Below are positions 1 to 4,919 of a stretch of DNA of 64,000 bases, one piece after another; position 1 is the stretch's first letter, and each line of letters starts with the position of its first letter. The notes beneath the pieces are model-generated. The model saw only the letters and a program-made list of their open reading frames with translations, was not told the origin of the DNA and did not search any database. The position numbers and the translations under genes were made by a program. The stretch is taken from the NCBI RefSeq assembly GCF_003635115.1, contig NZ_RBXJ01000004.1, positions 62,001 to 126,000 on the forward strand, given 5' to 3'. The stretch comes from Microbacterium sp. AG1240. GTDB taxonomy: Bacteria > Actinomycetota > Actinomycetes > Actinomycetales > Microbacteriaceae.

Positions 1-51
1 CCGCCGGGGTTCGTTGCAGGATTGCTGCCGGGGTGAGGTCGCACGAGTGGG

Positions 52-57
52 TAGCTT
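52..57 (+). promoter_or_regulatory. -10 hexamer of leaderless promoter
   Basis: TAGCTT lies exactly six bases before the GTG at 64. This is the leaderless arrangement seen repeatedly in the window. Confidence 0.5.
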
Positions 58-63
58 GTCATC

Positions 64-510
64 GTGGACGAGAACGTAGTTGCATTGCTGGTGGCTGGCA
101 TTCCCGCGGCAGTTGCAGCAGGCACCTTTCTTGGGGCGGAGATCATCCGCGCTCGCAACGCACGAGGCGATCGTGTGTCCGCCGCGGTGCACGAGCTGGT
201 GGACGCTCTAGTCGAGGTGGTCATCGTTGAGGGGCGCCCGCTGCCTATCCGGTGGTTCCGTTTCACTTCAGTGGTCGCCCGTGCGACGGCAGCTTCGACT
301 GCTTTCCTCGCTGCGGTGGAAGAGAAGGACCGGGACTTCGCACTATGGGTCGTACTGCAGTCGCAGACGCTGATCGGTGATCGTGGCGAGCGTGTCGTGT
401 GGTCGTCGAAGCTGCTCGCGTCGGTTCGCCTGTGGCAGATCCGTCCGGCGCAAATGAGGGCACAAGCCACCGCGGAGCTACCCGCGCTGCGCGCGCTCAC
501 TGCTGAATAA
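64..510 (+). CDS. hypothetical single-pass membrane protein
   Basis: The gene encodes 148 residues and I do not recognise a family. The first ~28 residues (VVALLVAGIPAAVAAGTF and on) form one hydrophobic segment that ends in charged residues, so an N-terminal anchor with a cytoplasmic helical tail is likely. There is no ribosome site before the GTG, but TAGCTT sits six bases upstream, supporting a leaderless start. The last 14 bases overlap the end of a broken minus-strand gene. It is one of three open plus-strand genes inside the decayed phage-type module. Function is unknown. Confidence 0.6.
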   Translation: MDENVVALLVAGIPAAVAAGTFLGAEIIRARNARGDRVSAAVHELVDALVEVVIVEGRPLPIRWFRFTSVVARATAASTAFLAAVEEKDRDFALWVVLQSQTLIGDRGERVVWSSKLLASVRLWQIRPAQMRAQATAELPALRALTAE

Positions 511-802
511 CCGGGCCGTCGAAGATGCGCCGGGTAATGCAAGCGAGGACATAGCCGTAAGTGTGCGCACGGTTCGGTGACTCCCACCATGGAAGCTGCT
601 CGCGGATGCGGTCAAACCGTTCGGCGGCGCGGCATCCGTCGTCGGCGTAGAGGCCCGAGGTGACGGCGTCGGCCATGCGTTCGCAGTCGACGCGCTTCTC
701 GTACCCTTGGCCGCCGTCGGTCGCGATGATGGCGCCGTTGTCGGCGCGGAGTCGTCAGGCAAATCGGCCGTCGGCGCGACGATAGGTCTCGGGGTTGGGC
801 AT
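497..802 (-). pseudogene. DUF1508/YegP-like small protein, broken by an in-frame stop
   Basis: Reading from the ATG at 802, with a good GGAGG ribosome site just upstream, gives MPNPETYRRADGRFA, then TGA at 757-755, then a long clean frame RLRADNGAIIATDGGQGYEK and on to a stop at 497. The sequence flanking the stop resembles the WRLRADNG...IIATDGGQGYE pattern I know from small phage and actinobacterial proteins, so the stop most simply replaces a Trp codon (TGG to TGA). Apart from this one codon the 102-codon frame is open. A sequencing error is the alternative. The family assignment is from memory and modest. Confidence 0.6.
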
Positions 803-840
803 CGCGTGACCTCCGGCCGTAGCTGTGGGAGCATCGGGGC

Positions 841-1233
841 ATGCCGCGCTTCGTCGACAACGACCAGTACTCGAACGTGAATGAAATCGCCGACCGCAAC
901 GGGCTGATTTGGGATGGGCAGTACGGGTCGCCGTACGACATCGAGTCCCTCATCGAGAAAGCCCTACGGGACCGCGACGAGATGCAGCGCTACTCGCGCC
1001 TCTTCGACCACACGAAGCGTTTCAAGCCACGCGGGTCGGGGAAGAAGGCGCCTGTCATGGCGATCAGTTCGCCTTACCTAGCTGACAATGATGAACTTCG
1101 ATCGGCTGTCGCTGCCTTCGCGACACGCTTCGGGCTGGACGCGGTAGTCAACGACTCGCAGTACCGCGTCTACGCGGAGAATGGCACTATCCCGATCGTC
1201 TTCTGGCGACCGGACCTGCACACACTCGCTTGA
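841..1233 (+). CDS. hypothetical protein
   Basis: The gene encodes 130 residues, soluble and rich in charged and aromatic residues (MPRFVDNDQYSNVNEIADRN at the start), with no domain I recognise and no membrane segment. It starts 38 bases from, and divergent to, the broken gene at 497-802. Its upstream hexamer GAGCAT at 829-834 occupies the -12 to -7 position used by the leaderless promoters here, but lacks the first T. The stop abuts the 3' end of the HNH pseudogene on the other strand. Codon use looks genuine, and the third positions are less G/C-biased than in the chromosomal genes to the right, which fits a transferred origin. Confidence 0.6.
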   Translation: MPRFVDNDQYSNVNEIADRNGLIWDGQYGSPYDIESLIEKALRDRDEMQRYSRLFDHTKRFKPRGSGKKAPVMAISSPYLADNDELRSAVAAFATRFGLDAVVNDSQYRVYAENGTIPIVFWRPDLHTLA

Positions 1234-1529
1234 TCACGCCCACTGGCGGGACGGAACGCCCAGGTCGGCAATCGGGGCACCGTTGCCGCGCTCCCGATCA
1301 CAGCCCGCGTGGCTGGCCTTCTTGTTCGTCGGGTCTTCCTGCAGTTCGGGGTAGGCGGACACAGGCTAGAAGTGATCCTCTTGGAACCGGTCGTCGTTGC
1401 CCCTGTCGTTCCATCGGCGCCCTAATCGACCGCGAGGCCGCAAATCCAGCACGGCTCGTCGTTCTCCTTGCATTCAGCCCGGAATTTCTGGCGCTGCGTG
1501 TTCTGTCGACGGGTATTGGTACGTGTCAC
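1234..1529 (-). pseudogene. phage-type HNH endonuclease, frameshifted and with a nonsense codon
   Basis: From a GTG at 1529 (GGGAGG upstream) the frame reads MTRTNTRRQNTQRQKFRAEC and on to CWICGLAVD, then meets TAG at 1424-1422. One base appears lost there. In the shifted frame the text continues FQEDHFY, a second stop (TAG, probably from a Tyr codon), then PVSAYPELQEDPTN, SHAGCDRERGNGAPIADLG and PSRQWA to a TGA at 1234. The parts form a complete small HNH nuclease: a CxxC zinc pair, the DH of the HNH motif, and the H..C..N segment. The span of 296 bases is one short of a multiple of three. Such genes usually lie beside the methyltransferase and terminase genes of actinophages. The gene is inactive. 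Confidence 0.75.
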
Positions 1530-1549
1530 GAGCAATCCTCCCGAATCGG

Positions 1550-1555
1550 TAGCCT
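1550..1555 (+). promoter_or_regulatory. -10 hexamer of leaderless promoter
   Basis: TAGCCT ends exactly six bases before the ATG at 1562, and no ribosome site is present. Confidence 0.5.
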
Positions 1556-1561
1556 GCTCGG

Positions 1562-2281
1562 ATGACGAACCCCGCGGCCGAACTCGCTTCGCTCCTGACA
1601 AGCTGGCGGCGAATGCCGAACGCGAAGAGCATCTACGGCGTTCGCGGCATGGACGCTCAGACGAGGGAGGAATGGCGTACCCAGGTGCGAGCTGTGGAAC
1701 TACTCGCCCAGGTGGATCGCGCACTGGATGCCCTTGAGAGTTCCGGCCGCAGCGTCGGCCATTACCGCAGTTACTACGTCGCATGGATGAAAGCGATCAT
1801 TGTTCCCGAGTACAACTGGGCTGCAGGAAACAATGGGACGACGAACCTGTTTGACGAGCACGTCATCGACATGCTCAAGGCGACGGCCGATCTGCTGACA
1901 AGCACCGAAGCCCCAGTGACAGTGACGTCTGAGTCGAAGACCGAAAGTCTTGACGCCCTCGATCAAATCCTCGAGGCCATTCGGGACGCCCCCGTGGCGG
2001 ACCCCGTGCGGCGCTACCTGTTCGAGTTGATCAGCTCGTGCCGAACAGTGCTGAACGAGGCCAGCACCTTGGGCTCTGTGGATTTGTTCGGTCGGATCCA
2101 CGAACTTGTCGGCATGCTGACGTTGATCACCGACTCGATGAACGAAAATCCCGAGGCATCGACGTGGGTGGCGAAGGTCAATGAGCTGGCTCGGCGTTTG
2201 GTGCCGTATTACTACGCCGGCAAGGCGACCTCATTCGCGCTCGACGCGGCGGCCAATTTCAAGGCGCTCGGCGAAGGGTAG
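1562..2281 (+). CDS. hypothetical protein, helical, soluble
   Basis: The gene encodes 239 residues, predicted by eye to be mostly helical, with many Leu/Ala heptad-like stretches and no signal peptide or membrane segment. I do not recognise a family. It starts from a leaderless ATG with TAGCCT six bases upstream, and is divergent from the broken HNH gene with only 32 bases between the starts. Base composition is visibly poorer in G/C than in the housekeeping genes of the window, a sign of foreign origin. It is the largest open gene on the plus strand of the decayed module and shows no lesion, which suggests it may still be under selection. Confidence 0.6.
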   Translation: MTNPAAELASLLTSWRRMPNAKSIYGVRGMDAQTREEWRTQVRAVELLAQVDRALDALESSGRSVGHYRSYYVAWMKAIIVPEYNWAAGNNGTTNLFDEHVIDMLKATADLLTSTEAPVTVTSESKTESLDALDQILEAIRDAPVADPVRRYLFELISSCRTVLNEASTLGSVDLFGRIHELVGMLTLITDSMNENPEASTWVAKVNELARRLVPYYYAGKATSFALDAAANFKALGEG

Positions 2282-2345
2282 GAGCTGGCGCTCCCGCAGT
2301 TGAGGAATCCCGATGAGGGGATGCTCACCCGCCCGCGGGAGTAGC

Positions 2346-2486
2346 TCAGTCGTCGGACCCTGGTCCGGACAGGCGAAAGGCCGGTCTCCACGAGCACGTC
2401 CACGGGAAGAGTTGGGGACGAACGCTCAGGACGGCGCGGCCGATCATGCCGGTCCCGGCGAAGAGCTTGCCCGACAGCGGGGTCAT
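2346..2486 (-). pseudogene. 5' remnant of a cytosine DNA methyltransferase gene
   Basis: The ATG at 2486 overlaps the stop of the ASCH gene as ATGA, the usual tight packing of phage operons. The first residues, MTPLSGKLFAGTGMIGRAV, match the N-terminus of phage C5-methyltransferases, where (L)FAGxG is S-adenosylmethionine motif I. After about 22 residues the similarity fades and the frame ends at 2346. There is no room for the rest of the enzyme before the opposite-strand gene ending at 2281, so only a stub remains. The identification rests on a short motif plus position. Confidence 0.4.
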
Positions 2487-2983
2487 GCTGAGACCATTCG
2501 GAGAGCGGCGTCGACGACGTCCTCCGGGACTCGGCCGAGGCCGAGACCGCCTCGGTGGGCGATCGGCTCAGCGAGCGGTCGCGGGTTCTTGAGCACGAGG
2601 TGGTGCAGCCATCCGGTGTCAGACGGTCCTTTTGCCGACGGTTAGCAGTGGTCGCGGCAGGTGCCGTGCTCGAGGCAGTCGTGACGGATCCGACCGCACC
2701 CGCCGATCACGCTCGTACTGTGCACCTCGACGAGGTCGACGACGCCGAGGATCGCGCCGCGTACGCTCATTGCCTTTCGCGACTCCGGGGGCGCGGTGTG
2801 CATGGCGTCGCGGAAGAGGTCGGCGTTCCAGAGCACGTCTTCGTTGTCGACGGCGGTGAGGCCGGCGTGGATGAGGACGGGCCCGCGGTAGAAGCCGGCG
2901 ATGTTGCGGCTCCGGTTCTCGACGTTTTTGCCCGCGTGGATGATCGCCCACGCCCAGGGCTGCCGCACGGTGAGGATGCGCAT
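2483..2983 (-). pseudogene. ASCH-domain protein, interrupted by an in-frame TAA
   Basis: The start MRILTVRQPWAWAIIHAGKN and the following ENRSRNIAG..YRGPVLIHAG are characteristic of phage ASCH-domain (RNA-binding PUA-like) proteins. GAILGVVDLVEVH follows, and the frame reaches TAA at 2644-2642 directly after CRDHC. In the same frame the expected C-terminus continues (HHLVLKNPRPLAEPIAHRGG, then GLGRVPEDVV) to a TGA at 2483, giving 167 codons in all. The stop most simply replaces a Ser codon (TCA to TAA), since CSPxA is common there. ATG at 2983 overlaps the stop of the upstream gene, with CGGAGG as ribosome site. Confidence 0.75.
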
Positions 2984-3420
2984 CACAGACCTCCGACGAG
3001 GCGGGTTTCGAGCTGCAGGATGACGGTCGCGTACGCCATGAGCGCGCCGACGCAGTCCTGCACTTCACCGCGATCGCGGAGCGCGGCCATCACCCCGGCG
3101 ATGCCGGAGTAGTCGCTGTTCAGGGTCATGCTGACGATCAGCTCGGCGTCGCGTTCGGCCGCAGTGAGACTCTCGTCTCGGGCGGGGGCGAAGATGATGG
3201 ATCCGCCGAGCGCGGCGGTCGCGGTCGTGGGGAGCTGGTGCTGCATGTGGGTCCCGAGGGCGGCGACCGCGACCGCGAACGCGTCCCACGCGAGGTCGGA
3301 TCCGTCGAGGTGGTGGTTCATCCAGGACTGAGCGGCGTCGCGGTCGCCGGTCGTGAGGATGTTGCCGAGGGCGTGCACGCAGTGGGTGGGCCAGGGAACG
3401 GTGGAGCAGTATTCGGTCAT
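2983..3420 (-). CDS. hypothetical phage-type protein
   Basis: The gene encodes 145 residues of unknown function: MTEYCSTVPWPTHCVHALGN at the start, with helices rich in Ala and Leu and no membrane segment or catalytic motif that I recognise. Its ATG overlaps the stop of the redoxin pseudogene by four bases and its stop overlaps the ASCH start, so it belonged to the same operon. The frame is intact, but both neighbours are broken, so it may now be a bystander. It resembles the small alpha-helical early proteins of actinophages only in size and context. Confidence 0.55.
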   Translation of the reverse strand: MTEYCSTVPWPTHCVHALGNILTTGDRDAAQSWMNHHLDGSDLAWDAFAVAVAALGTHMQHQLPTTATAALGGSIIFAPARDESLTAAERDAELIVSMTLNSDYSGIAGVMAALRDRGEVQDCVGALMAYATVILQLETRLVGGL

Positions 3421-3691
3421 GATGCGTTCTTCTGGGGTTCGGGGTGGTCTTCCCGCCAGGCGGTGACGATGCGGTCGATCTCGGACGGCATAAGCCGGGA
3501 ACCGCGATGCCGCCGTGCTCGGTGATGGGCGCGGACGAGTAGCCGAGGCCCTTGAAGTGCCCGAGGTCTTTCTCGCTAGACGGCGCGGTGAGGTCTTCCT
3601 CGATGTACGGCACGCTGGCCGCGTCGAGACGGAACTTGACCATCCGGCACTGCTGGCAGGAGGGCTTCGTCCACACGATGACGTCGCTCAT
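3417..3691 (-). pseudogene. NrdH-like glutaredoxin, frameshifted
   Basis: The frame starts MSDVIVWTKPSCQQCRMVKF, a thioredoxin-fold start with the CxxC redox pair CQQC, followed by YIEEDLTAP and SSAPITEHGGIAVPG, where the cis-Pro region (SAP) belongs. Right after VPG the text only makes sense one base over: MPSEIDRIVTAWREDHPE and on to a TGA that overlaps the next start as ATGA. The span of 275 bases is one short of a multiple of three, so one base was lost near 3490. NrdH redoxins reduce class Ib ribonucleotide reductase, and phages often carry copies. The catalytic half is still readable but the C-terminal helix is out of frame. Confidence 0.7.
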
Positions 3692-3942
3692 GCCTGTAGC
3701 CGATCTGCGATAGGTCGCGTGCCGTTGAGGCAATGAATCACGGCGTTCAGCTCCGCAACCTGCGCCTCTTTGGCAGCGACCTTGTCTCGTGCCACGCGCT
3801 CCAGACCGTCCGCGTCGGCGGCAGCCTTTCGGGCGTCACGCGCTCGGTCTTGGAGACATCGCACGTCCGCTCGGTCGTACTCACCGAGCTCGTGTAGGAG
3901 CTTGTTGCGCTCACGGGTCAGGGCATCGACTGCGACGCTCAC
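3688..3942 (-). CDS. small coiled-coil protein
   Basis: The gene encodes 84 residues from GTG at 3942, which overlaps the stop of the J-domain gene as GTGA. The stop overlaps the redoxin ATG. The sequence (VDALTRERNKLLHELGEYDR, then DRARDARKAAADADGL) is a charged heptad-like helix to near residue 70, so a short coiled coil is likely. No catalytic residues are visible. Proteins of this kind are common between replication and nucleotide-metabolism genes in actinophages. Function is unknown. Confidence 0.5.
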   Translation of the reverse strand: MSVAVDALTRERNKLLHELGEYDRADVRCLQDRARDARKAAADADGLERVARDKVAAKEAQVAELNAVIHCLNGTRPIADRLQA

Positions 3943-4571
3943 AGCAGGCCCCGCTCTCGAAGCGTCGCCTCGGCGAGCGAGACGCGTTGGAAGGTCGCCG
4001 CGTCCCCACCGACATCCGGATGGGAGATTCGCTGCGCCTTGCGGAGCACCATCGCGGGAGCCGGCGTGCCGTGAATCGCCAGGTCGTCGGCGCCGATTAG
4101 TTTGACCAGCCAGCGATATGCCGCGTCCGCGTCGGCGAACCCGGCAGGCGCAGCGGTCGCGTCGAGCGCGAGGAAGCCTCGGTGCTGCTCGCCGTGGGCA
4201 GTGACGCCGTAGCGGTCGACCTTGCGCAGCGCCTCGAGCGCCGGTGCGATCGCGCGGAGGTTGTCCTCCCACCGGTCGAACGTGTCGCACGGGTAGGACA
4301 GCGGGCCATGTTCCGAGCCGAAGCTGAGCACGATGCCCGGGTGAGCCGCGACGCGGCTGGCGCGCGGGAGCCCGTCGAGACGGAAGTCCTCGGGGCGGAG
4401 AGCGATGAGCAGGGTCGGGTTCTTCGCGCCGAGCTCGCGCAGCTCGCGGCTCAGGCGCGCGGGGGTGGCGAAGTGGGTCGACTCGAACTGCGATCGACGA
4501 CGGCGCGCGGTCATGGTGCCGGGCCACTCGCGCATCGGTGCGACGACGAATCCGGAGGGCCAGTAGGTCAT
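3939..4571 (-). CDS. phage-type J-domain protein
   Basis: The gene encodes 210 residues. The N-terminal two thirds (MTYWPSGFVVAPMREWPGTM, then LGAKNPTLLIALRPEDFRLD, then HGPLSYPCDTFDRWEDNLRA) is a domain I know from actinophage genomes next to J-domains. The C-terminus carries the J-domain core with the HPD tripeptide (RKAQRISHPDVGGDAATFQR), the element that stimulates Hsp70 ATPase. The role in phage biology is not established. ATG at 4571 overlaps the stop of the small upstream gene, and the stop overlaps the next GTG, so it is the first complete gene of the minus-strand operon. The frame is intact. Confidence 0.7.
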   Translation of the reverse strand: MTYWPSGFVVAPMREWPGTMTARRRRSQFESTHFATPARLSRELRELGAKNPTLLIALRPEDFRLDGLPRASRVAAHPGIVLSFGSEHGPLSYPCDTFDRWEDNLRAIAPALEALRKVDRYGVTAHGEQHRGFLALDATAAPAGFADADAAYRWLVKLIGADDLAIHGTPAPAMVLRKAQRISHPDVGGDAATFQRVSLAEATLRERGLL

Positions 4572-4684
4572 GGGGCGGCCCCCATCAGGGTGTGCTTCGT
4601 GGCCGCGCATCCGCAGTCCACGATCTTCGACTCGTCGGACTCGGTGATGAGGATGGCCTCCCCGTTGCACGCGCCGTTCGTGCA
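4568..4684 (-). pseudogene. truncated Cys-rich small phage-type protein
   Basis: The 3' part of a gene reads CTNGACNGEAILITESDES, then VDCGCAATKHTLMGAAP and a stop overlapping the J-domain start. The CxxxxC and CxC pairs suggest a zinc-binding fold. Upstream of about 4684 the same strand is simply the antisense of a VOC-family gene, so the 5' end of this gene is missing and the module's boundary lies here. A short start inside the VOC antisense is possible on paper but unconvincing. Confidence 0.5.
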
Positions 4685-4919
4685 GCTGGAGTTCTTCCCG
4701 TTCGCCGGGCTGCTGCCCGAGCAGAGCTCGTTCATGTGCAGCGTGCGCGTCGACGACGTCGACGCGCTGTACCGCGCGATCCGTGCGTCGGGCGTCGCGG
4801 AGGGGAGCATCGGGGCGCCGCGGTTGACACCCGTGCGGATGCAGCCCTGGGGTCTGCGTGCGGGGGCGTTGATCGATCTGGACGGGACGCTGCTGCATCT
4901 CATCGAGAATGCGGTGTGA
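4677..4919 (+). pseudogene. 3' fragment of a VOC (glyoxalase/bleomycin-resistance) family gene
   Basis: From about 4677 the plus strand reads VQLEFFPFAGLLPEQSSFMC, then VRVDDVDALYRAIRASGV, then PWGLRAGALIDLDGT and LIENAV to a TGA at 4917-4919. This is the second half of a typical 115-125 residue VOC protein, including the conserved RVDDVDALYxxIRASGV helix and the D-DGT-L-LIEN strand. The first half, with its metal ligands, is absent. Sequence to the left is antisense to phage-type genes. It was therefore cut by insertion of, or deletion with, the phage-type module. The fragment should be non-functional. Confidence 0.75.

Follow-up and report, generated by a model that had tools for sequence, protein, structure and literature searches.

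Related prophages and phages

Prophages are described, in a passage of PMC7744054, as ranging down to highly degraded cryptic sequences. We analysed a 64,000-nt stretch of Microbacterium sp. AG1240 (NZ_RBXJ01000004.1, here G000:C4:62001-126000), which is referred to as the window and whose coordinates are prefixed W; the genome comprises 3.35 Mb in five contigs. With a probability of about 0.92, W20-4685 is a 4.67-kb fragment of an actinophage early region that became lodged inside a gene of the VOC/glyoxalase superfamily and is decaying there. The source actinophage was most likely temperate.

A close relative is a prophage in the genome G018 (contig C6, ~350.8 kb to beyond 390 kb), which shares with the fragment the gene order J-domain, NrdH, ASCH, HNH and DUF1508, at amino acid (aa) identities of 57% (ASCH), 60% (J-domain) and 72% (NrdH). 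Unlike the fragment, it possesses an integrase and a terminase, and the five genes are open. In G074, a phage-like region (L101) that also includes a DnaB-like helicase gene carries J-domain (55% aa identity), ASCH, HNH and DUF1508 genes in identical order and on identical strands, but no NrdH match was listed for it, and an 860-aa gene and others separate its J-domain gene from the HNH gene. Two IMG/VR contigs of 53 and 47 kb, IMGVR_UViG_2844649581_000001 (L032) and IMGVR_UViG_3300042922_000744 (L033), are also related. The latter has NrdH, ASCH, HNH and DUF1508 genes too, and its NrdH and ASCH genes are separated by an 869-aa gene absent from the fragment. Among isolated phages, Microbacterium phage Casend (Squashvirus, MT657333.1) has a DnaJ-like gene that matches at 73.2% DNA identity in two pieces; its neighbours are named differently, a distinction that rests on annotation. 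We found no literature on Microbacterium prophage pseudogenes with a DnaJ-like gene, or on a Microbacterium prophage with an attB site at a glyoxalase gene.

Boundaries of the insert

The boundaries were set against an empty site represented by uninterrupted VOC orthologues, all of which come from other species. This comparison yielded the following features:

W-111 (L013:9889) to W19, plus strand: 5′ half of the VOC/glyoxalase-superfamily gene, its last 19 bases being W1-19
W20-4685: phage-derived insert of 4,666 bp, with the terminal TGCAG included once
W4681-4919, plus strand: 3′ half of the VOC gene, resuming at W4681-4686

The 5′ half reads ..RRGSLQ to W19, and the 3′ half restarts with LEFFPF.. 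and ends at W4919. Uninterrupted orthologues read ..RRRSLQLEFFAF.. (G034, Pfam Glyoxalase, E value (E) 2.1e-7) and ..GELQLEFF.. (L026, L028), and ..RRRSLQLEFF.. was also observed. Because both halves match such orthologues through the junction, the VOC codons are all kept. The initial annotation had placed a decaying phage module at W1-4684, which misses the right edge by one or two bases at most; the left edge has to be moved to W19/20. Comparison with relatives lacking the island, which it had proposed for finding both ends, did provide them (W19/20 and W4681-4686). The split VOC gene with its exact extent had been missed, as had three open plus-strand open reading frames (ORFs).

The motif TGCAG occurs at both edges of the element, at W15-19 and W4681-4685. 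The edge sequences, GGTTCGTTGCAG and CCGTTCGTGCAG, make a microhomology-mediated deletion conceivable. As for an attachment core, TGCAG is all that the edges share, and the right edge lies inside a gene. None of the 20 direct-repeat families (of 29) and 25 inverted pairs (of 40) that were listed marked both edges as direct or terminal inverted repeats. The right junction cuts a Cys-rich phage gene, and a natural phage end at that edge is therefore ruled out. Judged from its edges, the element is a fragment rather than a complete prophage.

Gene content was scanned with eight ORFs against Pfam and PHROGs and with seven island ORFs against NCBIfam; gene pieces were also compared with Pfam and PHROGs. 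No integrase or immunity gene was recognised between the junctions, and no transposase was found among the ORFs scanned with the three collections. No structural gene was recognised between the junctions either, the sole hint being a weak PHROGs match of a 148-aa ORF to a head-tail connector (E 0.02). The element thus combines phage-like homology and gene order, loss of excision and virion genes, and inactivating lesions, which are the marks of a cryptic prophage.

A search of 227 genomes of the genus with the VOC protein gave matches in 90, many of them weak paralogues, and two VOC halves kilobases apart were listed for the own genome only. The search gives no support for the VOC gene being commonly used for attachment. 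Four loci with partial VOC copies (G107, G127, G134 and G015) were fetched and considered as products of the same event, but none was equivalent.

Lesions in the early genes

We examined every reading frame of the minus-strand genes and compared the genes by tblastn with the intact homologues in the G018 prophage. There are nine, given here by window coordinates:

4568-4685, minus strand: gene for a phage Cys-rich protein, truncated by the right junction to the 38 C-terminal residues (compared by eye)
3939-4571, minus strand: J-domain (DnaJ-like) phage gene, open, 210 aa, phrog_9210 (E 4.4e-38)
3688-3942, minus strand: 84-aa ORF, open, labelled coiled coil in the initial annotation
3417-3691, minus strand: NrdH/glutaredoxin-like gene, frameshifted, homology switching frame at ~3494-3488
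2983-3420, minus strand: 145-aa ORF, open, no relative found
2483-2986, minus strand: ASCH-type gene, nonsense codon at 2644-2642, homology continuing to ~2513
2346-2486, minus strand: possible 5′ stub of a methyltransferase gene (weak tblastn match, E 0.046, 44% over 32 aa)
1234-1523, minus strand: HNH endonuclease remnant, frame change between ~1440 and ~1405 and nonsense codon at 1368-1366
500-802, minus strand: DUF1508 remnant, nonsense codon at 757-755, Trp in the homologue

Four of these genes carry point lesions (NrdH, ASCH, DUF1508 and HNH), two are truncated (the Cys-rich gene and the stub), and three are open. The count agrees with the initial annotation, which had proposed at least five damaged genes with recognisable frames on either side of each lesion: homology to the intact homologues persisted beyond the point lesions. 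The claim of a methyltransferase stub fared less well, as a short ORF is present at 2486-2346 with the weak tblastn match given above and no match in Pfam or PHROGs.

Protein family matches were recovered around the lesions. The first-frame piece of the NrdH gene matched Glutaredoxin in Pfam (E 2.1e-5) and phrog_22 (E 8.6e-10), and the second-frame piece of the HNH gene matched phrog_338 (E 5.3e-10); the stop codon of the latter corresponds to Trp in the L021 homologue. With X placed at the stop, the ASCH-type gene matched phrog_3193 (E 1.1e-30), without a Pfam match, and DUF1508 matched its Pfam model (E 1.8e-5). At the DNA level, the ASCH-type gene matched a gene of Malachai annotated as "ASC-1 transcription coactivator". 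The J-domain gene had no Pfam match. Full-length homologues of the Cys-rich protein measure 118 (G018), 120 (G028) and 125 aa (G074), and the 84-aa ORF had no relative within the fetched loci.

Relatives in phages and bacterial genomes

From W4685 to W500 the minus-strand run matched early genes of actinophages and prophages, as the initial annotation had suspected. A DNA search with W1-7000 matched 122 phage records. Among the 20 of these that were listed, 17 Microbacterium and two Gordonia phages matched the J-domain/ASCH part, and one matched the chromosomal gene at W6538-6999. The J-domain protein was 77% and 76% identical to its closest counterparts, those in L032 and L033, respectively, and 60-61% identical to that of the G018 prophage.

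In the genus, the J-domain gene matched in eight of the 227 genomes, including the own; five matches were strong, that is, in four other genomes, and a scan of genome contigs with the J-domain protein showed at least three distant relatives among the matches listed. A related region in G536 includes an integrase gene. We also compared the island across 58 genomes, including the own, with at most five candidates scored in each. Three separate pieces matched in G018 and one in G028; we disregarded the matches outside these two genomes and the VOC gene, most of which were short. No other genome in this comparison had the island as a unit, and no further match was scored within the own genome. Relatives in which the same broken genes are fixed without phage matches, the finding by which the initial annotation would have stood refuted, were looked for in these searches and not seen.

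The J-domain phage gene was also detected in pieces in two genomes, at G204:C7:81661-82307 and G207:C1:3023750-3024040. These are perhaps further eroding prophages.

Plus-strand ORFs

The fragment contains three open ORFs on the plus strand, whose relatives were sought in 299 genomes of the family:

64-510, plus strand: 148-aa ORF, open, weak relatives in two other genomes (G089, G501)
841-1233, plus strand: 130-aa ORF, open, relatives in two other genomes (G307, G382)
1562-2281, plus strand: 239-aa ORF, open, relatives in 11 other genomes

For two of the three families, relatives lie opposite to phage structural genes in Microbacteriaceae genomes. The G089 relative of the 148-aa ORF is on the strand opposite to a tape-measure gene and a few kb from it. 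The G421 relative of the 239-aa ORF (L061:6387-7121, minus strand) is part of a prophage, where it lies antisense between the portal and major head genes, a position typical of cargo genes, and the neighbours of the G256 relative are not phage-like. For the 130-aa ORF, one relative is 57% identical and near an integrase gene (G307), and the other is weak (G382).

No model in Pfam, PHROGs, PADLOC or NCBIfam matched the plus-strand ORFs at E 1e-3, and PADLOC gave no defence protein at 1e-3 among seven proteins (best E 0.043). The AlphaFold model of the 239-aa ORF is all-helical, with a mean predicted local distance difference test (pLDDT) score of 73. It had no fold match in PDB at E 1e-3, and its best match in a viral structure library was an uncharacterized siphovirus protein (E 1.5e-3). 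The model of the 130-aa ORF was too poor for use (pLDDT 54). Codon scores of the plus-strand ORFs were low, and negative for the 148-aa ORF. ORF length was ruled out as evidence for these genes by a Markov simulation of the insert, in which the longest ORF reached at least 239 aa in 349 of 500 runs. As open length proves little on its own, the case for the plus-strand genes rests on their relatives.

Neighbouring genes

By eye, we take the left neighbour of the insert to be a CYTH-like gene and W6538-7935 to be a dihydrolipoyl dehydrogenase gene. DNA matches and gene lists showed the two to be near neighbours in relatives, with 60 bp to ~3 kb between them (seven regions of 18 matching genomes). 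None of the seven regions fetched had a VOC, DUF222 or island gene between the two. In the own genome, this gap is occupied by the two VOC halves, the insert and one more gene:

W5000-6400: DUF222-HNH gene, Pfam DUF222 (E 2.8e-15)

The gap is a variable locus across L080-L086. L083, L085 and L086 each have three genes there (~380, 220-240 and 375 aa); L084 has two of them, L082 has a single different gene, and L080 and L081 have no gene in the gap. Partial copies of the DUF222-HNH gene, 90-94% identical, were found at G000:C1:1-908, C4:237678-238591, C3:1-269 and C1:1796485-1796695. Three of the four sit at a contig end, and the repeat therefore probably breaks the assembly.

Origin of the fragment

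The view of the initial annotation, a prophage remnant or phage-derived island being eroded, stands as to phage origin and lesions; it was incomplete in that six ORFs are open and the fragment lies inside the VOC gene. Several observations weigh against a decaying actinophage fragment. The six open ORFs (the J-domain gene, the 84-aa and 145-aa ORFs, and the three on the plus strand) mean that decay is incomplete, and single lesions may be sequencing errors. In phage records, tblastn found no match to the three plus-strand ORFs, and the 130-aa and 239-aa ORFs had no match in viral contigs; the 145-aa minus-strand ORF was likewise without a match. In contrast to the fragment and G074, G018 and L033 have DUF1508 on the opposite strand.

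A phage or phage piece would have entered the VOC gene at TGCAG, either as a prophage that later collapsed through deletion or as a linear fragment captured at microhomology. In the former case, a complete prophage would have integrated at TGCAG and then lost its integrase, replication and structural genes, with one deletion, at a short repeat, bringing the Cys-rich gene up against the right attachment site. We put this just short of an even chance. It accounts for the retention of all target bases and for the short sequence common to both edges, and the related prophages in G018 and G536 do have integrases; it requires at least two deletions, however, and sits poorly with a right edge inside a phage gene, with the absence of a long direct edge repeat among those listed, and with split VOC halves kilobases apart being listed for the own genome only in the VOC search, the four other partial copies fetched being different events. 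The mid-gene right edge, the 5-bp identity as the only likeness of the edges (again with no long repeats among those listed) and the lack of a recognised integrase in the fragment speak instead for end joining at TGCAG microhomology, by which a broken VOC gene would have taken up a linear phage fragment. End joining less usually keeps every target base, as happened here, and we regard this capture as possible, with the odds somewhat against it.

Two further explanations are less compatible with the data. Domestication would have the three plus-strand ORFs kept as cell-protective genes while the early genes decay, and is unlikely. The ORFs would then form a retained cargo module (e.g., for superinfection exclusion or abortive infection) from undescribed families of opposite-strand cargo in Microbacteriaceae prophages, with the early genes rotting around it, a proposal that we similarly doubt. 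None of the three is interrupted and each has relatives, in two families opposite to phage structural genes; but the simulation leaves little meaning in their openness, the searches for defence proteins and folds gave no match at the thresholds stated above, and the codon scores are low. Delivery by a transposon or insertion sequence with a 5-bp target duplication would explain TGCAG at both edges, and is highly improbable given that the recognisable contents are phage genes, the scanned ORFs include no transposase and the listed pairs include no terminal inverted repeat.

We thus favour the decaying actinophage fragment, whichever way it arrived. Judging from the anatomy of the locus, the VOC gene has presumably lost its activity. 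The fragment, with no recognisable means of excision, would be incapable of excision or replication, and its early genes would be decaying without selection. The plus-strand ORFs may represent phage cargo encoded on the opposite strand, either spared by lesions so far or still in use.

Comparison with known systems

The element is of an ordinary, known kind, a small decaying prophage fragment that splits a VOC gene. As an example of prophage decay it has clean boundaries, with the host gene split at no cost in codons and one or two lesions in each of the early genes. It also draws attention to three families of small ORFs, two of which have relatives opposite phage structural genes; otherwise, it represents ordinary genome erosion. 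Compared with cryptic prophages generally, the decay of phage genes is alike, whereas here the element measures just 4.7 kb and both of its junctions can be read in one host gene.

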